From the NCBI RefSeq assembly GCF_001984035.1, contig NZ_CP019449.1, positions 3,849,501 to 3,913,500 on the forward strand: a stretch of DNA of 64,000 bases. The letters run 5' to 3'. Every line of letters begins with the position of its first letter. Positions within the stretch are counted from its first letter, which is position 1. This document shows positions 15,002-34,535 of the stretch, piece by piece. Both the position numbers and the translations under genes were made by a program. Source of the DNA: Sphingopyxis sp. QXT-31. GTDB lineage: Bacteria > Pseudomonadota > Alphaproteobacteria > Sphingomonadales > Sphingomonadaceae. A model generated the notes under the pieces. It saw only the letters and a list, made by a program, of their open reading frames with translations, was not told the DNA's origin and made no database searches.

Positions 15002-15757
15002 TCAATCGGCGAGCGGCCAGCGGCGCGCGCGGACCCAGTCGACGAGCGCGACATCCCCGGGCGAGTCGGCGTGGATGCGCGCGCGCAGATCGTCGTCGAG
15101 GGCGAGGCGGCGCGCGACCACCTCGCTTTGCGAAGGGTGCGAGGCGGGGAGCGGCGCGGAATCGCCCGCGGCGCGATGATGCTGCCAGTCGGTCGGGATG
15201 CCCATCGCGTCGCAGACGAAATCGAGCCCCTCGTTCCAGCGATCGACGGTGGTCACGAACCAGCAGCGGGTCAGCATCTGCCGCGCCATGGCAAGGCGCT
15301 GCGCGCCGTCGGCGGGCAGCGCGGTACCGTAGAGCGCCTCGGCGAAAAAGCGGACCATGTAGTTGCGCTGCTCGGCGAGATAATAGTCGCGGTACCAGAT
15401 GGTGAAATCGTCGGGGGCGTGGCCGCGGCTCCAGCGGAAATTATAGAGCGAGACGCAGCGCTCGGCCGGGTCGCGCAGCACAGTGAAATAGCGCGGATCG
15501 CGCGGGCCGGGGACGAGGCGGTCGATGCCGTAATAAGTCTGATGCCCAGAGAGGATTTCGGCGCTGGCGCGCTCCTCCGGCGGGCGGTCGGCGAAATCGG
15601 GGCGGCCGTGCGTCTTGCGATAGCTGCGCCCCCAGTGCGAAAATTCGACGAGCTGTTCGTCCATCACGAAATGGCGTTCGAGATGCGCCTTCAGCGTCGT
15701 GCCGCCGCATTTGGGGACGTGGAGGAAGATCCACAGCGGGCGCGCGGCGTCGGTCAT
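15002..15757 (-). CDS. Sulfotransferase-family (Sulfotransfer_2-like) protein, lasso locus
   Basis: 251 aa from the ATG at 15757. The PAPS 5'-phosphosulfate loop is IFLHVPKCGGTT (residues 10-21), the form typical of carbohydrate (HS2ST-like) sulfotransferases. The 3'-phosphate site is FTVLRDPAERCVSLY. It would transfer sulfate from PAPS to a hydroxyl group. It is the last of five minus-strand genes joined by 4-bp ATGA overlaps starting at the lasso cyclase gene, hence a candidate tailoring enzyme. The acceptor (peptide side chain or an added sugar) is unknown. Confidence 0.8.
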   Translation of the reverse strand: MTDAARPLWIFLHVPKCGGTTLKAHLERHFVMDEQLVEFSHWGRSYRKTHGRPDFADRPPEERASAEILSGHQTYYGIDRLVPGPRDPRYFTVLRDPAERCVSLYNFRWSRGHAPDDFTIWYRDYYLAEQRNYMVRFFAEALYGTALPADGAQRLAMARQMLTRCWFVTTVDRWNEGLDFVCDAMGIPTDWQHHRAAGDSAPLPASHPSQSEVVARRLALDDDLRARIHADSPGDVALVDWVRARRWPLAD

Positions 15758-16554
15758 GCGCCGACCCTGTCGTAGCCGAAACGGGTGAGCAAGGGGCGGT
15801 GCGCGGCGAAGACCGTATCGAGGTCGGCGATCTGCTGCGGCGTCAGGCGCGCTATCTGGTCGGCGTTCATGTCGCGCAGCGGCTCGTCGTAGCGGCCCTT
15901 GACGGGACGCGCGCGGGCGAGGTCGAGGTCGGCGAGTTCGGGGACGAGCGTCGCGATGCGCGCGGCGACGTCGGTGGGCGCGGCGCACATCTCTTCATAG
16001 GTGAAAAAGGCCGCGCGCGAACCGAGCGCGGCGCGGTTCGCCTCCTGCGCCGCGAGCGCGGCGACGATATGGCGCGCGGCGGTGGTGGCGAGGCTGTCGC
16101 CGGGAGGGACGGGACCCGCCGCCCCGCCGCGGCGGATGATGCCCTCGGCGATGGCATAGGGATTGCGGACGAGGATCAGGAACGCGGCATCGGGAAACTC
16201 CGCTGCCAACTGGTCGGCGATCAGCAGGAAGGGCGGCGAGGCCACGACGAGCGTGTCGGCGCCTGCCTGCGAAGCGCGCGCGTGGAATTCCCACGCGCGG
16301 CGGGTGCGCGTCCAGTCGTAGGCGGCGGCCTCGCGAAAGGTTGCGATCGACGCCGGGCCGGCGGCCCAGAGCAGGCGCGTGCCGGTGCCGCGCGAGCTGG
16401 GGCCTTGGAAACCCGCGACATGCTGGCCCTCGCGCGGCAGCGACCAGGCGCGGGCGCAATCGGCGAGCGCGGCGGCGAGGAAGGTCGATCCGCTGTTGTT
16501 TGGCGCGAGCAGGAAGAGGTGGCGCCGCACCGCGCCCGCGGCGCCGGTGATCAT
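15754..16554 (-). CDS. Sulfotransferase-family protein, lasso locus
   Basis: 266 aa from the ATG at 16554. The N-terminal nucleotide loop HLFLLAPNNSGSTFLAAAL (Asn-Ser-Gly-Ser-Thr at about 20-24) and the later FLILVRNPYAIAEGI (3'-phosphate-binding Arg) fit the sulfotransferase/PAPS-binding superfamily. It is more divergent than the 20640-21506 enzyme. It overlaps its upstream glycosyltransferase and its downstream sulfotransferase by 4 bp each. Function in lasso peptide tailoring is inferred from this coupling only. Confidence 0.75.
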   Translation of the reverse strand: MITGAAGAVRRHLFLLAPNNSGSTFLAAALADCARAWSLPREGQHVAGFQGPSSRGTGTRLLWAAGPASIATFREAAAYDWTRTRRAWEFHARASQAGADTLVVASPPFLLIADQLAAEFPDAAFLILVRNPYAIAEGIIRRGGAAGPVPPGDSLATTAARHIVAALAAQEANRAALGSRAAFFTYEEMCAAPTDVAARIATLVPELADLDLARARPVKGRYDEPLRDMNADQIARLTPQQIADLDTVFAAHRPLLTRFGYDRVGA

Positions 16555-17387
16555 GCCCGGCTCCGGAGCCAGTCGGCGCGCGCCGCCGCCCATAGGCGGA
16601 GCGCCTCGGCATAGGCGGGGTCGCGCGCGATGGCGTCGGCGTGGCGGTCGGGGCGCCACGGTTTGGCAGCGCCGTTGAAGTGGAGCACCCGCGCGTCGGC
16701 GACCGGCACGGCTTCGTGTGCGAAGCTGGCGGCGCGGTGGCCGATCATCAGGTTGAAGCCGGTGCCGACGAGCGCGACGCGGTCGCGCAGCAGCAGGTTC
16801 CACACCGCCTGGTCGGTGTGCTGCGAGGCGATGCGCGACCATCCGGCGGGATCGAGCAAGGGCCAGAGCGCGTCGGCCATCGCAGGGTCGGGGTCGTAGA
16901 CGAGCAGCCCGGCGTTGAAGCTGGCGCGCGCCTCGCCTTCCGCCGCCACCTCGGCGAGCGTGTCGGCGTCGCGCTGGTTGCCGCGCAGCATCGCGGCGTC
17001 GGGGGCAGCGACGAGTGACGCGTCGCTGGCGAACAGCGACGAGATGTCGCCGCGGAAGAGCAGGTCGCTGTCGGCGAAGATGCGCTTGCCGGGGCCGCCC
17101 AGAAGCAAAGTCTCGAGGCTGAGGAAGCGGTCACGGCGGCCGCCAAGATACGGGTGCGCGGCGACTAGGGCATCGATCGCGGCGACGAGGCGTCGGCTGG
17201 CGGTGCGGCATGAAAGACGCGGGAAGGCGTCGGCGAGCGTGGTCTGGTCGGTTTCGGACAGGCGGCTGTGGAAGACGAGGATGTCGCCGTCGAACCATGG
17301 GTTGGTCGCGCGGAAGCTCGCCAGCATGACCTCGGTCCCGATGCGAAAATCGGGCGAAGAGACGGTGACGAGCGTCGGCGCGGTCAT
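16551..17387 (-). CDS. GT8-like glycosyltransferase, lasso locus
   Basis: 278 aa. GT-A fold features: N-terminal LVTVSSPDFRIGTEVML, the metal-binding DxD motif as FADSDLLF (DSD at about 106-108), then FNAGLLVYDPD, HTDQAVWN and the C-terminal VLHFNGAAKPW. The HFNGxxKPW element is typical of GT8 (glycogenin/LgtC-like) retaining enzymes. It would use a UDP-sugar. It sits between two sulfotransferase genes with 4-bp overlaps and downstream of the lasso cyclase, suggesting that a sugar may be attached to the peptide and then sulfated. This remains an inference. Confidence 0.8.
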   Translation of the reverse strand: MTAPTLVTVSSPDFRIGTEVMLASFRATNPWFDGDILVFHSRLSETDQTTLADAFPRLSCRTASRRLVAAIDALVAAHPYLGGRRDRFLSLETLLLGGPGKRIFADSDLLFRGDISSLFASDASLVAAPDAAMLRGNQRDADTLAEVAAEGEARASFNAGLLVYDPDPAMADALWPLLDPAGWSRIASQHTDQAVWNLLLRDRVALVGTGFNLMIGHRAASFAHEAVPVADARVLHFNGAAKPWRPDRHADAIARDPAYAEALRLWAAARADWLRSRA

Positions 17388-18010
17388 GGCGCCGCGTCCG
17401 GATCATAGCCGAAGAGCGCGAAGTCGCGCGCGTAACGGGCGCGGATCATGTCGGCGAGTTCGGCGTCGAGGGTGGCGCCCTGGTTTTCGGGCGAGACATT
17501 GACCGGCTCGAGCGGGGCGAGCGGCGCGCCGAGCGCGGCCGAGAGGCGGGCCATGTCGGCGGCGAGATTCTCGTGGCGGAGGAGCAGGCTGGTGCGGATT
17601 CTGCCGTCGTCGTCGCAGACGAATTCGTGCTGCGGACGGAGCAGGATATGGCCGCGGTCGTCCTTGAGCGCGCGCTTCATCGTGCCGAGCGGGTCGCGTT
17701 CCATCGCGTCGCCCTTGCGCCAGGCGAAGCGCGCGAAGGAGAGAAAGCGGTCGAAGGGGGAGCGGACGACCGCGAAGCTGGTCATTGCGTCCCACTGGCT
17801 GGGGAGGAGGAAGGGCTGGACGTCGCGGTAGGAGAGGTGGCCGTGACCGATCGCCGCGAGCGGCGCCACGGGGAAATAGCGCCTGTCGAACAGGGTGCAT
17901 TGTTCCCAGTCGTTCGGCGCGAGCAGTGGGCGGAGCGCGGTGCGCAGCGCATGCCCCGCGGTCTTGGGGATCGCGATAAAGGCGAAGCGGCGGCTGAACG
18001 ACAGGATCAT
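17384..18010 (-). CDS. Sulfotransferase-family (Sulfotransfer_2-like) protein, lasso locus
   Basis: 208 aa from the ATG at 18010. Phosphosulfate loop FAFIAIPKTAGHALRTAL (residues 9-26) and 3'-phosphate motif FAVVRSPFDRFLSFA. Several later conserved residues (QHEFVCD, HENLAADM) match the Sulfotransfer_2 family. It overlaps the lasso cyclase gene upstream and the glycosyltransferase downstream by 4 bp each. A much longer open frame covering this gene and the antisense-like frame of the cyclase is an artefact of high GC. The substrate is unknown. Confidence 0.8.
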   Translation of the reverse strand: MILSFSRRFAFIAIPKTAGHALRTALRPLLAPNDWEQCTLFDRRYFPVAPLAAIGHGHLSYRDVQPFLLPSQWDAMTSFAVVRSPFDRFLSFARFAWRKGDAMERDPLGTMKRALKDDRGHILLRPQHEFVCDDDGRIRTSLLLRHENLAADMARLSAALGAPLAPLEPVNVSPENQGATLDAELADMIRARYARDFALFGYDPDAAP

Positions 18011-19827
18011 GGCCGCGCCGCCGGATCGGGAGGGATGTCGAGGAACTGGATCGCGAGGCGTAGCGCCGAATCGCGGCTGATGCCGGTGCGGCGCGCGTCG
18101 GCGAGGCGCCGGTGCACTTCGGCCATGTCGAGATAGCGCGCGCGCTTTGGCGGCGTTCCGGCGGCGTCGAGGCGGTCGGCGATGCGGATCATCGCCTCGC
18201 CCAGCGCGCGTTCGATCCACGCGACCCGCAGCGGCTCCTTCTTGCTGTTGTTGAGGCGCACGACGTCGGGGAGGAGGCCCGCGCTCGCCTGCTTGATCAG
18301 CCAGCGGCGCATCGGACCGCGGCGGAACATGCGCGGCGGCAGCGTATAGATAAATTCGAGCAGGCGGCGGTCGAGTAGCGGGAAACGATAGTCGAGGCCG
18401 TGCGCGGCGCCGCTGATCGCCCAGTCCTCTAGCCGCGCGGTGGTCGAGCTGTAGCGCAGCAGATAATGCTGGGTGTGGCGGACGCCGAATTCGCGCAGCC
18501 GCGGCACGGGGTAGAGGCGCGCACGGCGGAGGAAGCCGGGGTCGATCAGGCTGTGGCCGGTGCGCGCGCGCCAGCGCAGCGGCACGCGCGGGCGATATTC
18601 GCGGCCGAGGCGGCGGCCGGCGTGATAGATGGTGCGCAGCCCTGCGACGAGACCCGGCCGCTGCGCATCGCGGTAGAGTGCCCTCCAGCGGCCGGTCGCG
18701 AAGAGTTTCGGATGATGGCCGCGGCCGTTGAACGAGGCGCCCTCGTCGCCGCCCCAGCCCGACAGGATGACCTGGATATCGCGCGCCGCCGCCTCGCGCT
18801 GCGTCGCGCCTTCGTGGAGCAGGTTGCGGATGTCGGGACCGCGCGTCCAGTCGCGCGCGAACAACTCGGTCATCTCGTCGGCCGAGAGGGTGGGCGCGAA
18901 GAGCTCGAGCCCCAGATGCGCGCGGATCGCCTCGCTCCATCCCGGTTCGCTGTCGGGTTCGGCGTCCGGATCGACGAGGTGCCAGCTGTAGCTCGGCGGG
19001 TCGGCCAGGCCGCGGCGGCGGAGCTCGGGCACCGCGAGCGCGGCGATGAGCGAGGAATCGAGCCCGCCGCTCAAATGCACCGCGACGCGCGTCGCGCCGG
19101 CAAGGCGATCGATCACCGCTTGTTCGACGAGGAAACGGTAGCGGGCGAGGGTTTCGGCGTCGCCAGCGCGCTCGTCGACGACGATCGCCTCGGGCTGCCA
19201 CCAGCGGTCGATGTGGACGGTGCCACCCGAAAGATGCAGCCGGTGGCCGGGTTCGAGGCGGCGAACGGCACGCAGGAAGCTGCGGCCGAGCGGCTGGAAC
19301 TCGCGGTGGACGAGCGTGGTCGCGGCATAATCCTCGTCGAGGTCGTCGGGTACGCCGGGGAGCGCGAGCAGCGCCGCGAGATCGCTGGCGAAAGCGAAGC
19401 GCTCCGCATCGAGCGTATAGAAGAAGGGGCGTGCGCCGACATGGTCGCGTGCGGCGAAACTGTCGCCGGTCGCGGCGTCGTGCAGGACGAAGGCATAGTC
19501 GCCGTAGAGATGGAGCGGGCAATCGCTGCCCCAGCGGCGCCAGGCGGCGGCGATCAGCGCGGCGGCGGGCGCGCCTTCGGGCGGGGCTAGCGGGCCGAGC
19601 GCGGTACGGAGTTCGGCTTGGCCGTCGATGCGCGCATCGGCGACGAGGATCAGGCTGTCTGAAAAGAAAAGCGCATCGCACGAGGGTGCAGGGCGCATCG
19701 TGGCGACGGAGCCGAATGCGGCGGCGGCGCGCGTTTCGATGGCGGCTTCGGGGCCGAGCGTGGCGGCGATCGCTGCGCGATCGGCGGGTGCGCCCCGGCG
19801 GTGGATGCTACCACAAAATCGATGCAT
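18007..19827 (-). CDS. Asparagine-synthetase-like lasso peptide cyclase (C protein)
   Basis: 606 aa. An N-terminal glutaminase-like domain (1-200) begins MHRFCG; the essential Cys2 of true AsnB is absent, so it does not make asparagine from glutamine. The C-terminal ATP-PPase domain has LSGGLDSSLIAAL (PP-loop Ser at about 253) and LSGWGGDEGAS. In lasso pathways this protein adenylates the Asp/Glu side chain of the core and forms the macrolactam with the N-terminal Gly. The precursor gene lies 196 nt upstream on the same strand, separated by hairpins. It overlaps the next sulfotransferase gene by 4 bp. The ribosome site is weak. Confidence 0.93.
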   Translation of the reverse strand: MHRFCGSIHRRGAPADRAAIAATLGPEAAIETRAAAAFGSVATMRPAPSCDALFFSDSLILVADARIDGQAELRTALGPLAPPEGAPAAALIAAAWRRWGSDCPLHLYGDYAFVLHDAATGDSFAARDHVGARPFFYTLDAERFAFASDLAALLALPGVPDDLDEDYAATTLVHREFQPLGRSFLRAVRRLEPGHRLHLSGGTVHIDRWWQPEAIVVDERAGDAETLARYRFLVEQAVIDRLAGATRVAVHLSGGLDSSLIAALAVPELRRRGLADPPSYSWHLVDPDAEPDSEPGWSEAIRAHLGLELFAPTLSADEMTELFARDWTRGPDIRNLLHEGATQREAAARDIQVILSGWGGDEGASFNGRGHHPKLFATGRWRALYRDAQRPGLVAGLRTIYHAGRRLGREYRPRVPLRWRARTGHSLIDPGFLRRARLYPVPRLREFGVRHTQHYLLRYSSTTARLEDWAISGAAHGLDYRFPLLDRRLLEFIYTLPPRMFRRGPMRRWLIKQASAGLLPDVVRLNNSKKEPLRVAWIERALGEAMIRIADRLDAAGTPPKRARYLDMAEVHRRLADARRTGISRDSALRLAIQFLDIPPDPAARP

Positions 19828-19947
19828 TGCGCTTGATCGATCCGTCCCGATTATGCGTCCGGTCCCGAAGAATCCCCGACCGCGCAGCCGTGCCCGAGCG
19901 GCAGACGGGCGTCAAGCGAGGGCGCCCAGGTCCAGGACACAGCAACA

Positions 19948-19970
19948 ACGGCCGCGCGCCGCGCGGCCGT
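19948..19970 (-). promoter_or_regulatory. GC-rich hairpin between precursor and cyclase genes
   Basis: A perfect 10-bp inverted repeat ACGGCCGCGC/GCGCGGCCGT around a 3-nt loop, 54 nt after the precursor stop. There is no T-run, so it is not a standard terminator; it could stabilise the 3' end of the precursor message or set polar expression. Confidence 0.5.
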
Positions 19971-19981
19971 CCAACGGGTCC

Positions 19982-20016
19982 GAAAAGAAAATGGACGGGC
20001 GCCTCTGGGGTGCCCG
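19982..20016 (-). terminator. Partial intrinsic terminator/attenuator just after the lasso precursor
   Basis: On the minus strand an 8-bp stem (20016-20009 with 20003-19996, one mismatch) lies 7 nt after the precursor stop and is followed by TCCATTTTCTTTTCGG. Such leaky terminators commonly make RiPP precursor mRNA more abundant than that of downstream enzymes. Confidence 0.55.
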
Positions 20017-20023
20017 GTCGCAA

Positions 20024-20164
20024 TCAGGACGCGTCGTAGAAAGTGTCGTCCTGATCGTTGATGTCGCCGCCACCGCCGCGCGTGCGCTCGGCCGGGATCA
20101 CCGAACGCAGTTCGGGCTTCTGCCAATCCTTGCGCGGCGTGCGAGTTTCTACGGTCTTGGTCAT
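20024..20164 (-). CDS. Lasso peptide precursor (A), predicted core GGGGDINDQDDTFYDAS
   Basis: 46 aa, MTKTVETRTPRKD then the leader motif WQKPELRSVIPAERT. This fits the lasso pattern Y/W-x-x-P-x-L with Thr at the penultimate leader position (Thr28), followed by Arg29. Cleavage after Arg29 gives a 17-residue core starting with Gly. Asp8 of the core allows an 8-residue Gly1-Asp8 macrolactam with tail QDDTFYDAS. The core has five Asp and ends in Ser, the residue phosphorylated in paeninodin. There is a strong ribosome site (AGAGGGGGAAG). It is flanked by the B1 and C genes on the same strand, with a promoter-like element upstream. Confidence 0.9.
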   Translation of the reverse strand: MTKTVETRTPRKDWQKPELRSVIPAERTRGGGGDINDQDDTFYDAS

Positions 20165-20238
20165 GACTTCCCCCTCTTTACGCTGATGCCGGTAGCATAG
20201 CCTTCGGCCCTTGCTACCCCAATGACAAATACCTTCTC

Positions 20239-20267
20239 ATAGTGGGACAGAATGACCCTTGCGTCAA
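20239..20267 (-). promoter_or_regulatory. Candidate promoter of the lasso precursor gene
   Basis: On the minus strand TTGACG (20267-20262), a 17-nt spacer and CACTAT (20244-20239), giving a leader of about 70 nt. An inverted repeat TGGGACA/TGTCCCA (20243-20249 and 20281-20287) brackets the -35 region and could be an operator. Confidence 0.45.
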
Positions 20268-20292
20268 GGCATTAGGCCCATGTCCCAAATAC

Positions 20293-20583
20293 TTAGGACT
20301 CCTGCAGCGTTACGAGGCCTTTTTCGGCCAGCTCCTCAATGAATCCAATTGTTTCGGTGCGGCAAACATCCGCGTCGACATCATATTCGGCGACCAGCGA
20401 TTCGCAGATCACATCGAGCGTCGCGGGGGCGTCGATCAGCGCCCAGATGCGGCCGCCGACCGAATCGATGTCGAAATAATTGCCGCTGTCGATGTCCATC
20501 ATCATCAGCCCGTCGTCGAAATCGTTGAAGAGTATCGACGGATTGCGTGCGACGACGGTGCTGCCCGAAATTGCGGCTGTCAT
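20293..20583 (-). CDS. PqqD-like lasso RiPP recognition protein (B1)
   Basis: 96 aa from the ATG at 20583 with a GGGGGAAAG ribosome site. PqqD/RRE fold: VVARNPSILFNDFDDGLMMM (first beta strands), DIDSGNYFDIDSVGGRIWAL, then the helical CESLVAEYDVD and the C-terminal GFIEELAEKGLV. This matches the small winged-helix-like domain that binds the leader and presents it to the B2 protease and the cyclase. It sits directly upstream of the precursor gene. The split B1/B2 arrangement is the one used by paeninodin-type clusters rather than the fused McjB of microcin J25. Confidence 0.9.
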   Translation of the reverse strand: MTAAISGSTVVARNPSILFNDFDDGLMMMDIDSGNYFDIDSVGGRIWALIDAPATLDVICESLVAEYDVDADVCRTETIGFIEELAEKGLVTLQES

Positions 20584-20639
20584 GCTTTCCCCCAAAATCT
20601 CTGCCCCGCCGCGGCGATAGCGAGCGGGTGCGGGCGGCG

Positions 20640-21506
20640 TCAAGCGATTGAAGGCGGCAGATAATCGAGCGCCGCCATCTGCGCGCGATGGTCGGCGACG
20701 ATGCGCGCGACCTGGGCTTCGCTCAGCACCGCGGTCCACTCGCCGGCGCGGCCGCTGCGGAAGAAGGCGGGCATGTTGGCGGGCTTTTCGGAAAAGCCCT
20801 CGGCCGCCTCGCGCAGCTGGAGGTTTTCGAGGCTGCTCGCGGCGACTGCGGCGGCGACGGCCTCGGGGTTCGTGTCGATGCCCACCGCGTCGGCGACGCG
20901 CTTCAGCGCCATGGCGGGGTCGGCGAGCATGTCCTCGTAGCGGAGGAGGCAGACGCGAATCGCCTGCTGCTGCGTCCAGCCGGCGACATGGTCGCTCCAG
21001 CGGCCGAGGTGGACGGGCAGGAAGTCGCTGATCCGGTCGGGCCAGACGTTGAGCGTCGCGTGCGGGTCGGCCATGCGCGCGATGGTGGCGTCGAGGTCCT
21101 GCTGGCTGTGATGCGCGAAGCTGAGCGCGACGTCGAGCGGGTTGCGCACGATATAGATCGCGGCGCGGCTGGCGTCGGCGGGGAAGAGCGCGGTGCCGTC
21201 CGGGCCAATCGCATATTGGTCGTGCGTCTTGACGAAGAAGGGGGCGGTCGCTTCGGCCGCCATCTGGCGGTGGAGCAGCGCGCGATAGGGGAGCAGCTCG
21301 GCCGCGGTCATTTCGGCCGAGGAAATGGCGCAGGCATCGTCGAGCGCGTGGCGGTCGCCCCCGGTGATACCGCCCGCCAGCGCATTGACGCTGAAGTCGT
21401 CGCCGGGCGCGTGGAGCAGGTTGGTGAGCATCGCGCGCAGCCAGGTGTTCCCCGACTTGGGGTAGGAGGCGAGCCAGACGAGCGAGCCGGGCATCGCGTG
21501 CGTCAC
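20640..21506 (-). CDS. PAPS-dependent sulfotransferase (Sulfotransfer_1-like), lasso locus
   Basis: 288 aa, the most canonical of the four. Phosphosulfate loop SYPKSGNTWLRAML (about 14-27), catalytic KTHDQ (His of the KTH motif), and 3'-phosphate site AIYIVRNPLDVALSF (about 115-129). A C-terminal segment ending MAALDYLPPS matches the cytosolic sulfotransferase fold. It overlaps the kinase gene upstream by 4 bp and is followed, after 56 nt, by the PqqD-like B1 gene. It is probably an active O-sulfotransferase. Candidate acceptors on the predicted core are Thr12, Tyr14 and Ser17, or a hydroxyl introduced by the linked hydroxylases. Confidence 0.88.
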   Translation of the reverse strand: MTHAMPGSLVWLASYPKSGNTWLRAMLTNLLHAPGDDFSVNALAGGITGGDRHALDDACAISSAEMTAAELLPYRALLHRQMAAEATAPFFVKTHDQYAIGPDGTALFPADASRAAIYIVRNPLDVALSFAHHSQQDLDATIARMADPHATLNVWPDRISDFLPVHLGRWSDHVAGWTQQQAIRVCLLRYEDMLADPAMALKRVADAVGIDTNPEAVAAAVAASSLENLQLREAAEGFSEKPANMPAFFRSGRAGEWTAVLSEAQVARIVADHRAQMAALDYLPPSIA

Positions 21507-22429
21507 GCCGCCGGTTCGAGCGCGGGGTCGATGCCGAAATGATCCATCACCGCCGCCGCCATCGACGCGGGGGTTGCGCCGAGCATCGGCCGGCCGATCG
21601 CGACCATGTCGACCGACTGGGCGAGACGGACGACCGCGTCGAAACCCCAGCGCTGGAGCCCGAGGCCGCGGAGGAAATTCTTGCGGTGGACGTAACGCGC
21701 GAGCGCCTCGACGCGATTCGCCATCGCGACCGGGCGCGAGGTGATGGCGGCGCCATTATGGCCCTGGAGCAGCACGACCGCGCGTACCGGCATCGGGTGG
21801 CCGTGGAAGCGGTCGACGCCGACATAATATTTCTCGATATCCTCGCGCACCTGGACTTTGTCGTCGGCGTCCTTGCCGAGCAGCGACAGGCTGTCGGTCC
21901 ACAGCCGCATCGCCGGGAAGGCGGGGATCGCGGTTGCGCCCGCGTCGCCCACAACCACGCCGGTGACGTCGTCGGCGAGCATCGTGCAGCCTGCCGCCAT
22001 CAGACCGCCGAGCAGGGTCGACTTGCCCGCGCCCGAGCGCCCGATGACGAGGATCGCGCCCGTGTCGCTGGCGATAGAGCAGGCGTGCATCGGCAGGATG
22101 CCGCGCTGCATCAACAGCGCCGAGACCCCGGTGCCAAGGATGATCGAGACCAGCGCGGCGTCGGTCGCGCCGGCTTCGCGCTCGACGGTGATCGACCGGC
22201 CGCCGGCGATGAGCAGACGGCAGATACCGAAGGCCTGGAAGAGGATCTCGCCCGGTTCGGCGCGCCAGTTGCGGAAATGCAGCGCCTCGTCCAGCCGGTC
22301 GGCGGCGATGGGGGCGAGGCGGATTTCGGCGTCGACCGGCGCGGCGGGATCGCCGGGCAGCAGGTGCGGCAGCGCGAGGTCCGAGCGCAGGTTGAACCCG
22401 TAATGCGAATAAAAGGGACCGGCGGTCAT
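21503..22429 (-). CDS. HPr-kinase-related peptide kinase, lasso locus
   Basis: 308 aa. The P-loop is GRSGAGKST (about 130-138), preceded by ILPMHACSIA (His115, the HprK catalytic-base region) and followed by LADDVTGV (Asp153-Asp154, Mg-binding). These match the catalytic core of HprK/PadeK-type kinases. The N-terminal 100 residues replace the HprK regulatory domain. In the paeninodin cluster a related kinase phosphorylates the C-terminal Ser of the precursor, and this locus's core also ends in Ser. It overlaps the hydroxylase gene upstream and the sulfotransferase gene downstream by 4 bp each. Confidence 0.88.
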   Translation of the reverse strand: MTAGPFYSHYGFNLRSDLALPHLLPGDPAAPVDAEIRLAPIAADRLDEALHFRNWRAEPGEILFQAFGICRLLIAGGRSITVEREAGATDAALVSIILGTGVSALLMQRGILPMHACSIASDTGAILVIGRSGAGKSTLLGGLMAAGCTMLADDVTGVVVGDAGATAIPAFPAMRLWTDSLSLLGKDADDKVQVREDIEKYYVGVDRFHGHPMPVRAVVLLQGHNGAAITSRPVAMANRVEALARYVHRKNFLRGLGLQRWGFDAVVRLAQSVDMVAIGRPMLGATPASMAAAVMDHFGIDPALEPAA

Positions 22430-23025
22430 TTCGCGGGCGCGGTCTCGGCAGCGGCGGTGTTTTCGGTCGCGGCACGGTCGAAGACTTCGAAGATGAAATG
22501 GATACGATCGGCGTCGCCCTCGTTCACTCCGCCGTGCGGCGCGATATTATTGACCTCCCACGCGCGGCCATAGGCGAGATGGTGGCGGTTGGGGCCGCAG
22601 AGGAAAAAGGCCCCCGGATTGGTGATCAGCGGGACGTGGATCTTGTGCGTCCGAAGGTTCGATCCCGCGCCATCGCGGTGGAGGTCGATCAGCTGCCCCG
22701 CCTCGAGCCGCGCGAGCATCGCTTTCGGAAAGGCGGGGTCGACAAAAGCATAGGGCGCGATGGCAGCGTCCATCACCGGCTGGAGCAGCCCGCGCCAGAC
22801 GTGCCAGCCGGGATTTTCGTAATGATCCTCTGGGTCGCGATTGCCCGGGGTGAAGCGGAAGACGATATGGCGGGGGTGGTGGAAGACCTCGAAATCATTT
22901 TCCTTGAGCGCATCTTCCTGCCCCCAGGTGCGGTCCGAAATCGCGACGACACGGTCGCGCAGCGCCGATGCGTCGACGGGCCCCAAGTCGCGGACATTGG
23001 CGGGTTTGGTGACGATCACGGCCAT
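22426..23025 (-). CDS. Aspartyl/asparaginyl beta-hydroxylase-like 2-oxoglutarate oxygenase, lasso locus
   Basis: 199 aa from the ATG at 23025. The Fe(II) triad is visible: His116 and Asp118 (LIDLHRDGAG) and His164 (APHGGVNEGDADR), with Arg174 placed for 2-oxoglutarate. The region HKIHVPLITNPGAFFLCG is characteristic of the Asp_Arg_Hydrox family. It would add a beta-hydroxyl to Asp or Asn; the predicted core carries five Asp and one Asn. Start of the minus-strand gene set, overlapping the kinase gene by 4 bp. A longer upstream frame lacks family similarity. Acting on the lasso precursor is an inference from position. Confidence 0.88.
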   Translation of the reverse strand: MAVIVTKPANVRDLGPVDASALRDRVVAISDRTWGQEDALKENDFEVFHHPRHIVFRFTPGNRDPEDHYENPGWHVWRGLLQPVMDAAIAPYAFVDPAFPKAMLARLEAGQLIDLHRDGAGSNLRTHKIHVPLITNPGAFFLCGPNRHHLAYGRAWEVNNIAPHGGVNEGDADRIHFIFEVFDRAATENTAAAETAPAK

Positions 23026-23111
23026 GGGGGGTCTTATTGGCGGGTGCGGGCTGGGGCGGCAAGGGGGAAGTGGGGTGGGGAGTTTGGCAAACCGATCCAT
23101 AAGTCCCGTTC

Positions 23112-23179
23112 GTGTCGAGCGAAGTCGAGACACCCCGAAGGCGCGCGCTGCTGATGGGTGTCTCGACTACGCTCGACAC
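23112..23179. repeat. REP-like inverted repeat in the divergent lasso intergenic region
   Basis: 23-bp arms 23112-23134 and 23157-23179 (GTGTCGAGC.../...GCTCGACAC) with one mismatch and a 22-nt loop. It sits between the divergent hydroxylase and JmjC genes (23026-23275). The arms belong to a common sphingomonad extragenic palindrome type, so this is probably not a specific operator. Confidence 0.75.
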
Positions 23180-23275
23180 CAACGGAAATAGAGCGCGGTT
23201 TGGCAGCCTCACCGTACCCCAACACCCCACGCGCATTGAACCGCCGCGCCGCGCTGGCTAAGACGGGGCGGGGCG

Positions 23276-24523
23276 GTGTTCGCCCCGGGGGAGATGCGCG
23301 TGGCGGAGCGGGACCAGGGGCAATTGAGCCGCGAAGCGGCGACGCCGGTGCTGGCCGACCTGGTCGCGCCGCTGCAGGTCGCCGATTTCCTGGCGCAATA
23401 TTGGAACCGTGCCTTTCACGCCTGGCCGGGGCAGGCGGGGCGTTTTGCCGCGCTGATCGGCTGGGACGAGATCAACCATGTCCTGACCACGCAGCGGCTG
23501 GAGCCGCCGCGGCTGATCCTGGTCAAGGGCGGCAAGAATGTCGCGACCGAACGCTTCGTCCATGTCTCGGGCAACAACCGGCGGATCGACGCGGGTGCGG
23601 TGACCGCGCAGCTGGCGCAGGGCGCGACTTTGGTGCTGAGCTTCGTCGATGAGATGGTGCCGCGGATCGGGGTGCTCGCCGACCGACTGAGCGGCGAGCT
23701 CGGCGCGCGCTGCAACATCAACCTTTACGCCGGGTGGCGCGCCGACAATGGCTTCGACCTGCACTGGGACCGGCACGACGTGTTCATCCTCCAGGTTGCC
23801 GGGCGCAAGCATTGGCGCGTCCACCGCCCGACGCGCGATTTCGCGACGCGCGGCGAGGAGGCGCCGCCGCTGCCGAAGGACGACGTGCCGGTGTTCGACG
23901 GTATCCTCGAAGAAGGTGCGATCCTCTATATCCCCCGCGGCTGGTGGCACGTCGCAACCCCGGTCGAGGAGCCGAGCCTGCACCTGACGCTCGCGCTCGG
24001 ACCGCCGTCGGGGCAGGATTATCTGCGCTGGCTGGTCGGCCAGGCGCTGGCCGACCCGCTGTTCCGAACCGACTGGCCGGTCGCCAGGGGCGAGGCGGCG
24101 ATTACCCAATATTGGCACGAGCTGGGCGCGGCGCTGCAGGCGCTGCACGCGGCGCATCCGCCCGCCGCCTTCCTCGCCGCGCAACAAGCCGAGCGCGTCG
24201 CGCGACCGCGCTTCACCCTGCCCGAATTTGCGGCGGGCACGCTGCCGCGGCTCGACGACGAGAGCCGTTTGCGGCTGGCGAGCGCGCGCGGACTGGCGCC
24301 GGTGCACGACCCCGCGAGCGGCGGTTTCGGGCTGTGGGTCGGCGAGCGTTTCCAGGCGTGCAGCGAGGCCGTCGGCGCGGTGCTGGGGCGGCTGTCGAGC
24401 GGCAACGACATGCGCTTTGCCGCGCTCGCCGACGGGCTGGACGCGGCGGGGCGGCGCGAGCTCGCCGCTACTGTCGTGCGGCTCACCGCGGCGGGTGCGA
24501 TCTTCGTCGACCTGGACGCATGA
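23276..24523 (+). CDS. JmjC/cupin-fold oxygenase, lasso locus
   Basis: Up to 415 aa. GTG 23276, ATG 23294 and GTG 23300 are all possible starts, and the GGGGGAG site fits 23300 best. Cupin_4/JmjC features: the iron-binding HxD as FDLHWDRHDVF (His163, Asp165 from 23276), then LYIPRGWWHVAT (His225). DVFILQVAGRKHWRVHRP is typical of ribosomal-oxygenase-like JmjC proteins. It would be a 2-oxoglutarate-dependent hydroxylase. It starts the plus-strand unit with B2, the exporter and the nucleotidyltransferase, so it is a second candidate hydroxylase of the peptide. Confidence 0.85.
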   Translation: MFAPGEMRVAERDQGQLSREAATPVLADLVAPLQVADFLAQYWNRAFHAWPGQAGRFAALIGWDEINHVLTTQRLEPPRLILVKGGKNVATERFVHVSGNNRRIDAGAVTAQLAQGATLVLSFVDEMVPRIGVLADRLSGELGARCNINLYAGWRADNGFDLHWDRHDVFILQVAGRKHWRVHRPTRDFATRGEEAPPLPKDDVPVFDGILEEGAILYIPRGWWHVATPVEEPSLHLTLALGPPSGQDYLRWLVGQALADPLFRTDWPVARGEAAITQYWHELGAALQALHAAHPPAAFLAAQQAERVARPRFTLPEFAAGTLPRLDDESRLRLASARGLAPVHDPASGGFGLWVGERFQACSEAVGAVLGRLSSGNDMRFAALADGLDAAGRRELAATVVRLTAAGAIFVDLDA

Positions 24524-24536
24524 GCGGGCGGGACGT

Positions 24537-25025
24537 ATGACCGGGCGGATCGCCCTCGCGCGGCGCAAGCTCACCAGCGCGTGGCGGCTCGGCGGGCCGC
24601 GCGTCCTGCTCGTCGCCGAGGCGAGCCTGCTCCTGCTCGCGGCGCGGATCGCGGTGGCGGTGCTGCCGTTCCGGCGCGTCGTGCGCTGGCTGGGGAGGCC
24701 GGTGTCGCCCGCGGCGCTGCCGCCGCCCCCGCGGCGCGAGCGCCCCGACGACCGCGCGACGCGGGTGAGCTGGGCGGTGCGCTTTGCAGCAAGGCGCCTT
24801 CCGGTCGAGGCGGTGTGCCTGCCGCAGGCGATCGCGGCGCGTATAATGCTGAAGCGGCGCGGGATCGCCGCGACGCTGCACCTCGGCGTGTGGCGCGACC
24901 ATCGGGCGGCGGTAGAGGCCGACCCCGACACGCCGCCCGCGCATGCCTGGCTCGAGGCGTCGGGGCAGCGGGTCACCGGTTATCCCGTCGATCCAGCTTT
25001 GGTCGAGGTCGCGGCCTTTGTCTGA
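24537..25025 (+). CDS. Lasso peptide leader peptidase B2 (transglutaminase-like)
   Basis: 162 aa from the ATG at 24537. A hydrophobic helix at about 22-44 precedes the catalytic domain. The Cys-protease residues are Cys94 (VEAVCLPQAIAAR) and His136 (PAHAWLEASG), with Asp152 (YPVDPALV) possible as the third. This is the McjB-type fold without its RRE part, which is supplied by the PqqD-like B1 protein. It removes the precursor leader after Arg29. The gap to the JmjC gene is 13 nt; its end overlaps the ABC gene. A longer upstream frame overlaps the JmjC gene and is not credible. Confidence 0.9.
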   Translation: MTGRIALARRKLTSAWRLGGPRVLLVAEASLLLLAARIAVAVLPFRRVVRWLGRPVSPAALPPPPRRERPDDRATRVSWAVRFAARRLPVEAVCLPQAIAARIMLKRRGIAATLHLGVWRDHRAAVEADPDTPPAHAWLEASGQRVTGYPVDPALVEVAAFV

Positions 25026-26754
25026 GCCCGCGCTGCCCGTCGAGCCCGTGGCGCTGGTCCGGGCGATGCTGGCGACGGCGGACCGCGGGCGGCTGCTCGC
25101 CGTGCTGCTGCTGATGATCGCGGCGGCGCTGACCGAGGGGGTCGGCATCATGATGCTGGTGCCGATGCTGGCGCTGGTCGACGGCGGGGGCGGCGGCGCG
25201 GCGGTGCCGGGGCGGCTCGGCGAGCTGCTCGGCGGCATCGCGGGCGGGGTGACGCTGGGGCAGGTCGTGCTGATCTTCCTCGCGCTGCTGATCGTCCGTG
25301 CGTGGGTCAAGCATGTGCAGACGATGAAGGCGCTCGAGCTGCAGCATCGCCTGGTCGATCGCATGCGCGAGGCGATATTTGCCGGGCTGGTGTCGGCCGA
25401 GTGGCGCTGGCTGGCGAGCCGGCGCGCGTCGGACCATGCGAGCCTGCTGATCACCGACATCGGGCGCATCGGCGGCGCGTTCCAGCAATTGCTGACGCTG
25501 GCGGCGACGTCGTTCACCGCCATCGCCTATCTGGCCGCGGCGTATCTGCTGTCGTGGCAGGTCGCGCTGGTCGCGACCTTGGGCGGGGCGCTGATCCTGT
25601 TCGGCTTTGCCGGGCACCGCCGCCATGCGGTGCAGCTGGGGCGCGCGCTGAGCGGCGCGAACAAGGCGCTGCAGGCCGAGGTCGCCGAGGGCTTCGACGG
25701 GGTGCGGATCACCAAGATGCTGGGCGGCGAGGCGCGACAACGCGCACGATTCGCCGCCGTGCTGCGGTCGCTGCGGACGCGGCAGGTCGACCATGCGGCG
25801 AGCGCGAGCCATGGGCGCACGGCGCTGCAGCTGGGCGGCGGGGCGCTGCTCGCTGCGCTGGTCTATGTCGGGCTGGCGGTGCTGGACCTGCCGCTCGCGG
25901 CGCTGCTGCCGATCCTACTGGTCTTTGCGCGGCTGGTCCCGATGCTGGGGGTGATGCAGCAGAGCTGGCACAGCTGGCTGCATTCGGCGGCGGCGATGGC
26001 CGAGAGCGAGGCGCTGCGGCGCGAGACCGAAGCGGCGACCGAGGCGCCCGCGCCGGAAGGGGCGACGCCGATCCGGCTGGAGCGCGCGGTGGAGCTGCGC
26101 GGCGTCGGCTTCACCTATGAGGGGCGCGAGGGCGCGGCGCTCGACGATATCGACCTGGTCCTTCCGGCGCGGACGACGACCGCAATCGTGGGGCCGTCGG
26201 GCGCGGGCAAGAGCAGCATTGCCGATATATTGATGGGGCTGCTGTCGCCCGACGCGGGCGAGATGCGCGTCGACGATCTCGTCATCGCCGGCGCGACGCG
26301 GCAATTGTGGCGGCGCTCGGTCGCCTATGTCCAGCAGCAGCCCTTCCTGCTCGGCGGCAGCATCCGCGACAATCTGCTGTGGGCCGCGCCCGATGCGGAC
26401 GAGGCCGCACTATATACCGCGCTGGAGAAGGCGTCGGCCGATTTTGTCTTTGCGCTGCCGCAGGGGCTCGACACCCCGGTGGGCGACCGCGGCCAGCAAC
26501 TGTCGGGCGGCGAGCGCCAGCGCATCGCGCTCGCTCGCGCGCTGCTGCTGTCGCCCCAACTGCTGGTGCTCGACGAGGCGACGAGCGCGCTCGACCCTGC
26601 GAACGAGGCGGCGATCCGGCGCGCGATCGCCGGCCTGCACGGGCAGGTGACGCTCGTGATCATCGGGCACCGCCCGACGATGCTCGACCTCGCCGACCAG
26701 CTCGTGCGGATCGAGGACGGGCGGATCGTCCCGCACGCTGAGGCCGCCGAATGA
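25018..26754 (+). CDS. Lasso peptide ABC exporter (D protein)
   Basis: About 578 aa. The start is uncertain: TTG 25018, GTG 25048 and ATG 25066 are in frame, and TTG overlaps the B2 end. A six-helix transmembrane domain (about residues 20-310) is fused to an ATPase domain. Walker A is VGPSGAGKSSIADIL, the signature is LSGGERQRIALARA and Walker B is LLVLDEATSALD. It is a half transporter acting as a homodimer that exports the peptide and gives self-protection. It overlaps the nucleotidyltransferase gene by 4 bp. Confidence 0.92.
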   Translation: MSEPALPVEPVALVRAMLATADRGRLLAVLLLMIAAALTEGVGIMMLVPMLALVDGGGGGAAVPGRLGELLGGIAGGVTLGQVVLIFLALLIVRAWVKHVQTMKALELQHRLVDRMREAIFAGLVSAEWRWLASRRASDHASLLITDIGRIGGAFQQLLTLAATSFTAIAYLAAAYLLSWQVALVATLGGALILFGFAGHRRHAVQLGRALSGANKALQAEVAEGFDGVRITKMLGGEARQRARFAAVLRSLRTRQVDHAASASHGRTALQLGGGALLAALVYVGLAVLDLPLAALLPILLVFARLVPMLGVMQQSWHSWLHSAAAMAESEALRRETEAATEAPAPEGATPIRLERAVELRGVGFTYEGREGAALDDIDLVLPARTTTAIVGPSGAGKSSIADILMGLLSPDAGEMRVDDLVIAGATRQLWRRSVAYVQQQPFLLGGSIRDNLLWAAPDADEAALYTALEKASADFVFALPQGLDTPVGDRGQQLSGGERQRIALARALLLSPQLLVLDEATSALDPANEAAIRRAIAGLHGQVTLVIIGHRPTMLDLADQLVRIEDGRIVPHAEAAE

Positions 26755-27983
26755 CGGTGCGCGGGGCGCTGGCGGGGTTGCTGCTCGACATGCTCGCGGA
26801 GGTGCGTTTGGCCGACCGCGCGGCGCTCGCGGCGCTGTCCGAAGCCGAGTGGGACGTCATCGGCGACATGGCGAAGCAATATCGGCTGGCGCCGCTGCTG
26901 CACCACCAGCTGCAGGGACGCGGTGCCGACTGGCCGGTGCCCGAAGCGCTGCGGACGCGCTGGGCGCGTGGGTGGCGGGCGGCGAGCGAGCGAGTGCTGG
27001 CGGTGCAGCAGGCGCTGATCGCCGTGGCCGCGCTCGCCGACCGCGAGGGGTTGGCCTATGCGGCGCTCAAGGGCGCATGGCTCGCCTGGCATGCCTATCC
27101 CAATCCGGCGCTGCGCCCGATGCGCGACATCGACCTGCTGCTGAGCGAAGCCGATGCGCTGCGGCTCCATGCGGCGATGGAGGCCGCAGGCGCGGTGCCG
27201 GGGCCGGTGTCGCATACGCCGATCGACTATGCGCTCGTCCACCACAAACATCTGCCGCCGTTGCACTGGGGGCCGCAGAAGATCGCGTTCGAGCTGCACT
27301 GGCGGTTGTCGAACCCGGTGGAGGGCGAGGATCGCGGCGCGGCGGTGGCGGCGACCGAAGGGCTGCTCGCGCGGCGCGTGCGTGCGGGGTTGGGGCCGGC
27401 GGAGATATCCTATCTCGATCCCACCGATATGCTGCTGCACCTCGTCGTGCACGCGGCCTATGGGCGCCAGCCTTTCGATACGGGGCCGCAGGTGCTGAGC
27501 GACCTCGTGCGCGCGATCGACGGCGCGGCGATCGACTGGCCGCGCTTCTGGGGCGAGGCCGAGGCGGTGGGCCGCGCGGGCGGGGCGCGGCTGCTGTTCG
27601 CCTTGGTCGCCAAATATATGGGCAAGCGCGAGACCGGCGACCCCGCGACCGCGGCGGTGCCCGCGCGGCTGATCGCGGCGGCCGAGGCGCTGCTGCTGCA
27701 GGACGCCGGGCGGCGCGCCGAGCGTGGCTTTGCGACGCGCATGGCCGAGACCGGGCGGCGGCGCGGCAAGCTGGCGCTGGCGCTCACGCGGTTGTTCCCG
27801 CCGCGGCATATCGTCGCGCATTATGCCGGGGTGCCGGTGGACAGCTGGCGCGTGTGGCCCGCCTATCCGGCGCGAATGGCTCACCACGGCTGGCGCTGGG
27901 TGCGGCAGCGCGGCGATAGCGTGCTCGACGCCGAGGTCGCCGATGCGCGCGCGTTGCGTGCCTGGCTGGGGACCGAAGCCTAG
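26751..27983 (+). CDS. Nucleotidyltransferase-fold (NTP_transf_5-like) protein, lasso locus
   Basis: 410 aa. The motif LAYAALKGAWLAWHAY (Lys107) followed by RPMRDIDLLLSEAD (Asp126, Asp128) is the metal-binding DxD of the family PF14907. The remaining two-thirds is helical and Trp/Arg-rich, with no other known domain. Such proteins recur in lasso clusters of the paeninodin type next to the HprK-like kinase. Their reaction is not generally established; they may add a nucleotide or sugar phosphate. It overlaps the exporter by 4 bp and ends tail-to-tail with the DUF2891 gene. Confidence 0.85.
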   Translation: MTVRGALAGLLLDMLAEVRLADRAALAALSEAEWDVIGDMAKQYRLAPLLHHQLQGRGADWPVPEALRTRWARGWRAASERVLAVQQALIAVAALADREGLAYAALKGAWLAWHAYPNPALRPMRDIDLLLSEADALRLHAAMEAAGAVPGPVSHTPIDYALVHHKHLPPLHWGPQKIAFELHWRLSNPVEGEDRGAAVAATEGLLARRVRAGLGPAEISYLDPTDMLLHLVVHAAYGRQPFDTGPQVLSDLVRAIDGAAIDWPRFWGEAEAVGRAGGARLLFALVAKYMGKRETGDPATAAVPARLIAAAEALLLQDAGRRAERGFATRMAETGRRRGKLALALTRLFPPRHIVAHYAGVPVDSWRVWPAYPARMAHHGWRWVRQRGDSVLDAEVADARALRAWLGTEA

Positions 27984-28969
27984 AGCCCGTCGAGCGCGAG
28001 CAGCGCGAAGCTCGCGAGCCAATGTTCGCCCATATAGTCGCCGGTCACGTGCGGGAGCGCGGCGGCGAGGTGTCGCTCTGCGGCCGCCTCGGCGACCGGT
28101 GCGACGGGGTGCGCGGGACCGAGCGTCGCGGCGATCATGCGCCAGTTCCAGGCGCGGCTGAGGTTCAGGCCGTCGAGATGCGCGATCTTGCCATCGCTGC
28201 GGTCGGAGACGGTGGCGGGGGTGAAAAGGGTGACGGGCTGCTCTTTCGCGGCGCGGGGGAGGAAGGCGTCGAACCAGCGGGTGAAGTCGGTGCCGAGGAC
28301 CGCGGCCATGAGATGCCCCTCGCTGAGCGCCGAGGAGAGGAATTCGTCGCCGCCGGGCTCCCACGCCTGGCAGTCGCGGTCATCGGCGAACCAGCGCCGC
28401 GCGCTCGTATCGATCAGCGTGACGAGGGCGGGGTCGCGGGTTTCGGCCCAGTGTCGCGCGAGGAGAAGCGCGAAGGCGATGTTGAAATGGGTTCCGACGC
28501 GCAGCGGATAGGTGAGCTTGGGGAGGAAGGCGTGGAAGCGTCCGGCGAAGGCGAGGGCCAGCGGTTCGAGCGCCTTCGCCCAAGGGGCTTCGTGCTCTTC
28601 TGCCTCGGCGTGGAGCGCGAGCAGCCAGGCCCACCCATAGGGGCGCTCGAAGGCGGCGGAGTAAGGGCGATCCAAGAAGGCGAGCTCGCCCGCTGCCTTT
28701 TCGGGGACGAGCATCGCGTCGGCACGCGCACGGATGTCGGCGCTGATCGGCAGGTCGGGGAAGCGGCGCGCGAGGCGCAATATCTGCCACCAGCCGTGGA
28801 CGCAGCTGTGCCAGTCGAAGCTGCCGTGGAAGATCGGGTGATGCTCGCGCGGGGGCTGTGCATCCTCGGGGCCGAGGAGGACGAGGTCCATCTTGTACGG
28901 ATATTCGCGGCCGAGATGCGACAAGGTGGCGGTTGCGAACCGGGCGGCGTGATCGGGGTTGAGGTGCAT
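27980..28969 (-). CDS. DUF2891 family protein
   Basis: 329 aa, no signal peptide. Pattern HPIFHGSFDWHSCVHGWWQI near the N-terminus, with FERPYGWAWLLAL and a later EPGGDEFLSSAL, is the DUF2891 signature. It is a mostly alpha-helical, alpha/alpha-barrel-like protein. The His/Asp-rich FDWHS segment suggests an active or binding site, but the activity is unknown. DUF2891 genes often neighbour DUF969, DUF979 and 5-oxoproline enzymes, as here. Its stop overlaps that of the convergent nucleotidyltransferase gene of the lasso locus. Confidence 0.85.
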   Translation of the reverse strand: MHLNPDHAARFATATLSHLGREYPYKMDLVLLGPEDAQPPREHHPIFHGSFDWHSCVHGWWQILRLARRFPDLPISADIRARADAMLVPEKAAGELAFLDRPYSAAFERPYGWAWLLALHAEAEEHEAPWAKALEPLALAFAGRFHAFLPKLTYPLRVGTHFNIAFALLLARHWAETRDPALVTLIDTSARRWFADDRDCQAWEPGGDEFLSSALSEGHLMAAVLGTDFTRWFDAFLPRAAKEQPVTLFTPATVSDRSDGKIAHLDGLNLSRAWNWRMIAATLGPAHPVAPVAEAAAERHLAAALPHVTGDYMGEHWLASFALLALDGL

Positions 28970-28990
28970 GGGGTACCTCTAGACGTCACG

Positions 28991-29120
28991 ATCCTCCCTG
29001 TCGCGCAGCGATGGGGAGGTGGCAGCGCGGAGCGCTGACGGAGGGGCGATGACGCAACGTCGCTGGCCCCTCCACCACTCGCTTCGCGAGCGGTCCCCCT
29101 CCCCATGGCTTCGCCACACG
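28991..29120. repeat. Sphingomonad-type intergenic repeat (GGAGG-TGGCAGC family)
   Basis: Contains TGGGGAGGTGGCAGC, then GCTGACGGAGGGGC, and the complement CCCTCCCCATGGC at the far side, folding into a large hairpin. It lies between DUF2891 and DUF979. The same arrangement recurs at 44847-44997 and 51983-52122. Confidence 0.7.
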
Positions 29121-29129
29121 TAGGATTGA

Positions 29130-30739: not shown

Positions 30740-30745
30740 GGTTAT

Positions 30746-30935
30746 TTCCCTCCCCCTTGATGGGGGAGGCAGCGAGACTTGGCGGCTTGCCGTCTAGTCG
30801 CAGCGGTGGGGGTGCGGTTTCGGTCTGTTTCGAAGGTGCAGGGACGTGTCCTCACCCTCATCCAACTCCGCCTAATCGCTTCGCGATAAGGCTTCGTATC
30901 CTTCTCCCATCGAGGGAGAAGGAAGATTTGCGCCG
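30746..30935. repeat. Degenerate intergenic repeat with hairpins
   Basis: CCTCCCCCTTGATGGGGGAGG at 30750-30769 is a self-complementary hairpin. A second (CTTCTCCCATCGAGGGAGAAGG) lies at 30900-30923. These are members of the same GC-rich intergenic repeat style as 28991-29120. Confidence 0.6.
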
Positions 30936-30941
30936 CTGCCG

Positions 30942-34521: not shown

Positions 34522-34535
<14 letters not shown>

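Follow-up and report, generated by a model that had tools for sequence, protein, structure and literature searches.

Layout and inheritance of the locus

The window analysed here is a stretch of 64,000 nucleotides from Sphingopyxis sp. QXT-31 (contig NZ_CP019449.1, positions 3,849,501 to 3,913,500), whose genome is a single contig of 4,285,026 bases. Positions 15002-27983 of the window, from the first through the last gene, hold a locus of 14 genes. Ten lie on the minus strand, in the transcription order AspH (aspartyl/asparaginyl beta-hydroxylase family), K (HprK-like kinase), STa, B1 (PqqD-like recognition element of the kind found with ribosomally synthesized and post-translationally modified peptides), A (precursor), C (asparagine-synthetase-like macrolactam cyclase), STb, GT8 (glycosyltransferase), STc and STd, where ST marks the four sulfotransferase-family proteins. 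The plus strand carries JmjC (oxygenase), B2 (transglutaminase-like leader peptidase), D (ATP-binding cassette, or ABC, exporter) and N (NTP_transf_5 protein). With a probability of about 0.7, we suggest that these genes form one co-inherited locus for a predicted lasso peptide that is likely decorated with phosphate, sugar, sulfate and hydroxyl groups, and that its enzymes likely mature precursors encoded far away in the genome too.

The initial annotation had proposed the precursor, B1, B2, C, the exporter and nine further genes from the letters alone; all of them are present, within the coordinates that it gave. Our domain assignments are based on Pfam and NCBIfam profile searches of the window proteins. 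The 46-residue precursor A (20024..20164, minus strand; MTKTVETRTPRKDWQKPELRSVIPAERTRGGGGDINDQDDTFYDAS) has a WxxPxL leader motif, a Thr ahead of a Gly stretch, a near-terminal Tyr and a C-terminal Ser. B2 (24537..25025, plus strand) matches Transglut_core3 and exceeds the cut-off of the lasso-specific model NF033537, lasso_biosyn_B2 (86.4 bits against 33); its Cys94 and His136 are invariant in 14 aligned sequences. B1 (20293..20583, minus strand) scores 63.8 bits with Pfam PqqD and 70.7 bits with the lasso PqqD model NF033536, under the latter's cut-off of 80. C (18007..19827, minus strand) combines Asn_synthase (108 bits) and GATase_7 domains and has a PP-loop, SGGLDSS, that is invariant among its aligned relatives; its top NCBIfam model is the lasso cyclase NF033535, at 206.8 bits and thus under the cut-off of 525. 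As had been noted from the sequence, C lacks Cys2: its N-terminus reads MHRFCG, with Cys5 present. D (24943..26754, plus strand) has the ABC_membrane and ABC_tran domains.

The genes are tightly packed. Exactly 4-bp overlaps occur at 7 of the 13 junctions (six on the minus strand, and D/N), B2 and D overlap by 83 bp, and overlapping reading frames run through C. Relatives of C at 71-92% identity were found in 7 of the other 147 genomes searched, all in the same genus, and in these close Sphingopyxis relatives the gene order is the same, between genes for LacI and DUF2891, within the reach of the contigs. DUF2891 itself is present in 57 of 80 genomes of the genus. Among 30 loci read, LacI directly adjoins DUF2891 in all 26 of the cluster-free genomes inspected, and the four cluster-bearing loci have N beside DUF2891. 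Genomes thus have either the entire block or none of it, which marks it as one co-inherited unit. In one genome, G055 (locus L014; we number genomes with G and loci with L), several cluster genes are interrupted by frame breaks, as are LacI and DUF2891; with a completeness of 87% for this genome, the breaks are likely to stem from sequencing error.

Related loci extend well beyond the genus. Counting the own genome, the profile of C matches 41 of 397 genomes of the family and 12 of 385 of the class at E 1e-60, and a kinase search of 396 genomes from the order had matches in 99 at E 1e-10; a search for C on plasmids at E 1e-40 gave no match. We compared 21 loci, eight from Sphingopyxis and 13 from outside the genus (L049-L054, L067-L073). 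Across them and several genera a core set of AspH, K, STa, STc, B1, C and GT8 recurs with its order rearranged. Not every gene is found in each locus: K, STa, B1 and C are in all 21 and STc, AspH and GT8 in 20 each, the absences of AspH and GT8 being explained by contig ends. STb and STd occur in ten loci (those of Sphingopyxis, G221 and G671), and JmjC adjoins the cluster only in Sphingopyxis and G671, other genomes having weaker JmjC matches elsewhere or none. PF14907, the family of N, occurs in all 22 of the tested genomes that have related kinase clusters, compared with 2 of 14 controls. With about 1.5 kb read on each side, STa adjoins the kinase in 16 (own included) of the 30 best kinase loci, so that kinase and sulfotransferase are a common pairing, not a rule. 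One locus, L080 of genome G996, has three adjoining sets of kinase, STa and B1 and three C-like matches within 20 kb of one contig.

It could be argued that a neighbouring pathway, for surface polysaccharide or something else, is the true home of the sulfotransferase-family, GT8 and oxygenase genes, which would then stand beside the lasso genes by accident. STd is weakly similar to heparan sulfate 6-O-sulfotransferase, and compact versions of the locus do without JmjC, STb and STd, as such an accident would allow. But the reading-frame overlaps run through C, the block comes and goes as one, and through the changes of order AspH, STa, STc and GT8 remain in the company of A, B1, C and K; this explanation, disfavoured already, is very improbable. 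Membership of the extra genes in the lasso pathway is supported by the 4-bp overlaps, the all-or-none distribution of the block and the recurrence of the set in rearranged orders. This bears out the initial annotation, which took the further genes to belong with the lasso genes. The grouping is more than chance, as its core recurs in 20 other loci. The extra genes are presumed, as in the initial annotation, to encode tailoring enzymes.

Precursors at the locus and elsewhere

A local A gene was found in 19 of the 21 loci. The two others are those of G376, with none within 20 kb, and of G652, where the contig ends. When G376 was searched with the precursor of a relative, four copies turned up grouped at a single distant site, and the same kind of search gave three precursors in G652. 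A second search, covering 18 cluster genomes, yielded further copies. G376 thus resembles a case that the initial annotation had considered damaging, a related locus that keeps the sulfotransferases and lacks the precursor; with four precursors elsewhere, it extends the idea rather than refuting it. Unlinked copies are present in 13 of the 21 cluster genomes searched, including our own, in which the unlinked precursor (730,721-730,873) and the local one (3,869,524-3,869,664) are separated by 3.1 Mb of the contig, a distance that shrinks to about 1.1 Mb if the contig is circular. Near-identical cores of this copy occur in G032, G059, G026 and G027. Directly ahead of it, on the same strand, lies a gene of the GH5 cellulase family (L157:4722-6686), and in L157 and L163, the two regions with listed surroundings, the unlinked precursor follows the same gene.

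Each of the 18 unlinked regions that we read has one to four precursor-like open reading frames (ORFs), and the 6-16 kb fetched around them contained no B1, B2, C, K or sulfotransferase genes; weak ABC-like matches lie near the unlinked precursors of L171, L172 and L174. Purine-rich, Shine-Dalgarno-like stretches precede most precursor starts, as judged by eye. A profile of 24 precursor rows, A8, was searched in the 80 genomes of the genus. All eight cluster genomes gave strong matches (E 4.2e-11 or better), the 72 lacking the cluster gave none, and 15 of the 23 strong matches are unlinked, spread over seven of the eight cluster genomes. An unlinked precursor thus accompanies the cluster in 7 of 8 genomes versus 0 of 72 without it (Fisher p 2.5e-9, a value that ignores shared ancestry). 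Because every row of A8 comes from a cluster genome, what this test adds independently is that strong matches are missing from the 72 cluster-free genomes. G000, G001 and G059 are single contigs, and their unlinked copies are therefore truly distant. A database search with A8 returned 28 proteins at E 0.001, the organisms named being Sphingopyxis and Pontixanthobacter aestiaquae. A degenerate DNA pattern for the Thr-Gly-Gly region was also tried and proved uninformative, with more control matches than hits.

Several points weigh against a link between the locus and the distant precursors. Eight of the 21 cluster genomes searched have no unlinked copy (G055, G325, G404, G356, G540, G671, G503 and G660). 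All 24 A8 rows were taken from cluster genomes, ten of them from the genus, so that hits there arise partly by construction, and the cluster-free genomes searched for precursors are all within the genus. In draft genomes of the genus, unlinked means on another contig. Among the 15 unlinked matches, that of L164 has no in-frame start, and two cluster-free genomes, G021 and G034, have weak partial A8 matches (E 0.002).

The eight genomes with no unlinked copy lend some weight to the alternative that the locus matures its own precursor only, the unlinked precursor-like genes being remnants or working for some other system. Decay does occur in some copies, as shown by L164 and by one of the four L174 copies, which has lost Thr and Pro. 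Set against this are the co-occurrence of unlinked copies with the cluster, the Shine-Dalgarno-like stretches, the shared gene ahead of the L157 and L163 copies and the missing local precursor in the region of G376 that was read. In addition, among the orthologous unlinked copies of five genomes, the third codon position is the one that differs most in nine of ten pairs. We consider this alternative unlikely, and maturation of the distant precursors by the enzymes of the locus the better account.

Core sequence, cleavage and ring size

The 50 intact precursors, 19 local and 31 unlinked (the L164 copy and the damaged L174 ORF were dropped), share a conserved frame around a variable segment. In 24 aligned rows, Met1, the W and P of the leader, the Thr, the Tyr and the last Ser are invariant. 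The leaders carry the aromatic-xxPx[LVI] motif and the Thr close to the cleavage site that mark lasso precursors. The terminal Ser is present in 50 of 50, and the search that yielded most of the unlinked precursors used no filter on the last residue. The Tyr stands three residues ahead of it in 47 precursors and two in the other three. Thr-x is followed in all 50 by G, A or S and then by G or A, so that core position 2 is Gly or Ala throughout. From the Gly pair to the acidic residue, both length and letters vary.

This variation bears on where the leader is cut. The W sits 14 residues ahead of the Thr in 49 of the 50 precursors, while the aromatic-to-Thr spacing of known lasso precursors is 15 (Tyr at -17, Thr at -2); the register of the leader motif was not decisive for settling the cut, as wider relatives have spacings of about 13-15. 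With the usual cut, two residues past the Thr, an acidic residue falls at position 7-9, the accepted range for the acceptor (PMC10368454), in 33 of 50 precursors. In the window precursor it is D8 at the usual cut, and D7 or D9 could serve at a shifted one. The other 17 count against a simple lasso reading: their first acidic residue is at position 10 in 14 of them, at 11 in two and at 13 in the precursor from KK2, and a second sequence of the KK2 kind, P0020, has it at 14. If the cut were one residue later, three exceptions would remain and 47 of 50 would have the acid at 7-9. For the window precursor, the bare macrolactam has a calculated mass of 1727.655 Da as a 17-mer (Thr at -2) and 1670.633 Da as a 16-mer (Thr at -3), a difference of 57 Da; the corresponding values for the unlinked precursor of the same genome are 1820.770 and 1763.749 Da. 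According to a review, an engineered fusilassin ring of up to 10 was tolerated (PMC13352647), and the unprecedented ring of metanodin is due to Asn at position 1, not to size (PMC12670498). Because the first usable acid of 17 of 50 precursors lies at position 10 or later, these peptides would have either a shifted cut or a ring of at least ten residues; judged from the sequences, cleavage or ring size looks non-canonical. A kinase-associated precursor candidate at L055:5218-5451 has no acidic residue in its core (GPSTFGSGQAAHVS after Thr-Leu) and so cannot close the usual macrolactam.

The same observations raise the question of whether the product is a macrolactam that is not threaded, or a lasso whose cut falls one residue further on, leaving Thr at -3. 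The 17 exceptions and their reduction to three by the later cut, the constant Gly or Ala at position 2 and the far acids of KK2 and P0020 would all be accommodated. On the other side, B2 exceeds a lasso-specific cut-off, and wider relatives with a similar aromatic-to-Thr spacing have, by reading, the acid mostly at 8 or 9 and Thr at -2. We put this at somewhat less than an even chance, and continue to regard a lasso peptide as the predicted product. The widest form of our hypothesis is similarly tentative, falling a little short of even odds: that the locus serves a genome-wide combinatorial lasso system in which dispersed, fast-varying precursors become sulfated and phospho-glycosylated lassos, part of them with rings of at least 10 or a cut leaving Thr at -3.

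Putative tailoring enzymes and known systems

K (21503..22429, minus strand) matches HprK-type models weakly (HprK_rel_A: E 4.4e-7, 29.3 bits, cut-off 200) and is recognised mainly by residues that are invariant in 18 aligned sequences, His115, Lys136 and Asp153-Asp154. N (26751..27983, plus strand) matches NTP_transf_5, PF14907, at 146.7 bits, the family to which PsmN of the pseudomycoidin system presumably belongs. GT8 (16551..17387, minus strand) is a Glyco_transf_8 protein with a DxD motif whose D106 and D108 are invariant in 17 sequences. AspH (22426..23025, minus strand) has an Asp_Arg_Hydrox domain with His116, Asp118 and His164 invariant in 18, and JmjC (23276..24523, plus strand, start position approximate) a JmjC_2 domain with HxD (H163, D165) and H225 invariant in five. 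Between the divergent gene sets, at 23100-23190, an inverted repeat (about gtgtcgagcgaagtcgagacacc and ggtgtctcgactacgctcgacacc) was seen by eye; it resembles a dispersed palindromic element.

The four sulfotransferase-family proteins differ among themselves. STa (20640..21506, minus strand; Sulfotransfer_1) has the motifs YPKSGNTW, KTH and RNPLDVALS, and its closest solved relatives are Teg12 and Teg14. STb (17384..18010, minus strand) is assigned to Sulfotransfer_2 by Pfam; a sequence search for solved relatives gave none that was significant, and its structure model is poor (mean predicted local distance difference test score, pLDDT, of 49). STd (15002..15757, minus strand) has the motifs HVPKCGGTT and RDPAERCVS and a marginal match to Sulfotransfer_2 (23.3 bits against a cut-off of 22), and its relative in G671 scores just under that cut-off. 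STc (15754..16554, minus strand; Sulfotransfer_3) has, by structure prediction, a fold like that of tyrosylprotein sulfotransferase (TPST), together with an unusual P-loop, PNNSGST. The TPST motif has a basic residue in the loop that binds 3'-phosphoadenosine 5'-phosphosulfate (PAPS). As this residue is absent from PNNSGST, we do not class STc as a TPST; going by its modelled fold, it perhaps works like one.

With these assignments, a pathway can be proposed. B1 would bind the WxxPx[LVI] leader, and K would phosphorylate the C-terminal Ser of the linear precursor. By analogy with PsmN, N may then add a hexose to the phospho-Ser, and GT8 might add or extend a sugar. AspH and, where present, JmjC would hydroxylate side chains. 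STc might sulfate the Tyr near the C-terminus, while STa, often the neighbour of the kinase, and STb and STd could sulfate the group formed by the C-terminal Ser, phosphate and sugar. B2 would cleave the leader, C would join residue 1 to Asp or Glu, and the ABC protein would export the product. Because the leader and tail motifs recur in the unlinked precursors, a single set of enzymes would produce several peptides differing mainly in the ring.

Some of these steps meet contrary evidence. The PNNSGST loop of STc, invariant in 17 sequences, lacks the usual Lys or Arg of the PAPS loop, and the Tyr is present in G356 although the 20 kb read there showed no STc. Of 11 precursors from wider kinase-STa clusters, only 2 carry Tyr; these 11 were picked by eye on leader motif and terminal Ser, so that their terminal Ser is partly a matter of selection. 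The lasso kinase BsfK phosphorylates core Ser3 and not the last residue (PMC10368454). Tyr was rejected as the target of STa, since 9 of the 11 precursors have none, and Asp as the general substrate of AspH is not supported, given that the local precursor core of G221 has neither Asp nor Asn though its cluster has AspH. The second precursor of L057 also lacks Tyr.

If the hypothesis holds, genome mining for a precursor beside a cyclase gene misses many products, and clusters seemingly without a precursor, such as that of G376, could still be functional. From the tailoring set one would expect lasso peptides that are sulfated and phospho-glycosylated. Direct mass tests can be built on the conserved Tyr and Ser, and the acid at position 10 makes the rules of ring size and cleavage testable.

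The initial annotation regarded the combination of genes as undescribed. We found no description of it as a lasso system, but the claim needs qualifying, as most of the compact set is tabulated, gene by gene, by Zhou et al. 2023 (PMC10040529); there the genes figure among those that co-occur with halotolerance across six strains. Clusters 1738-1748 of their Table 2, from which 1745 is omitted, follow the order of L050: B2, nucleotidyltransferase, ABC, sulfotransferase, AspH, hypothetical, sulfotransferase, PqqD, Asn synthase-related and glycosyltransferase. In the accessible text, C is discussed as an asparagine synthetase, and a role in osmoprotectant transport is considered possible for the ABC gene; 'lasso peptide' appears once, in the table row for B2, and the set is not presented as a lasso locus. 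The same table has DUF969, DUF979, DUF2891 and hydantoinase B/oxoprolinase among the halotolerance-associated genes (PMC10040529). In the window, 27980-34535 on the minus strand, adjoining the cluster, holds DUF2891, DUF979 and DUF969 and a long gene that by eye resembles hydantoinase/oxoprolinase. The lasso modifications listed in the accessible parts of reviews are phosphorylation, phosphoglycosylation, hydroxylation and others, sulfation not being seen there. Literature searches, whose coverage took in few subscription journals, brought up no sulfated lasso peptide in the text accessible and no paper on unlinked or orphan lasso precursors.

Among known systems, those of the paeninodin/SyanK type (PadeK, ThcoK, SyanK) share with the present locus a split B1/B2, an HprK-like kinase with His-Lys-Asp-Asp and a C-terminal Ser of the precursor, whereas their accounts, in the portions available, include no AspH, JmjC, GT8, four sulfotransferase genes or unlinked precursors (PMC8498205, PMC9266682). 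Some lasso clusters of Firmicutes do have a putative sulfotransferase gene and a nucleotidyltransferase gene (PMC8498205). Pseudomycoidin (PsmK, PsmN) likewise combines a kinase with a nucleotidyltransferase-type protein, PsmN adding one or two hexoses to phospho-Ser, but the available accounts of it, unlike our locus, have no sulfotransferase set, hydroxylase or GT8 (PMC8498205, PMC9266682). In canucin A, the 2-oxoglutarate oxygenase CanE hydroxylates an Asp of the lasso precursor with the help of B1 (PMC9266682), which may parallel the predicted action of the oxygenases described here. The target in our family, however, need not be Asp, as the core from G221 shows. For the use of one enzyme set on many precursors, some of them far away, the parallel is with lanthipeptides of the prochlorosin type; the chemistry differs, the core enzymes here being of the lasso type and the variable part lying between the Gly stretch and the acidic residue.

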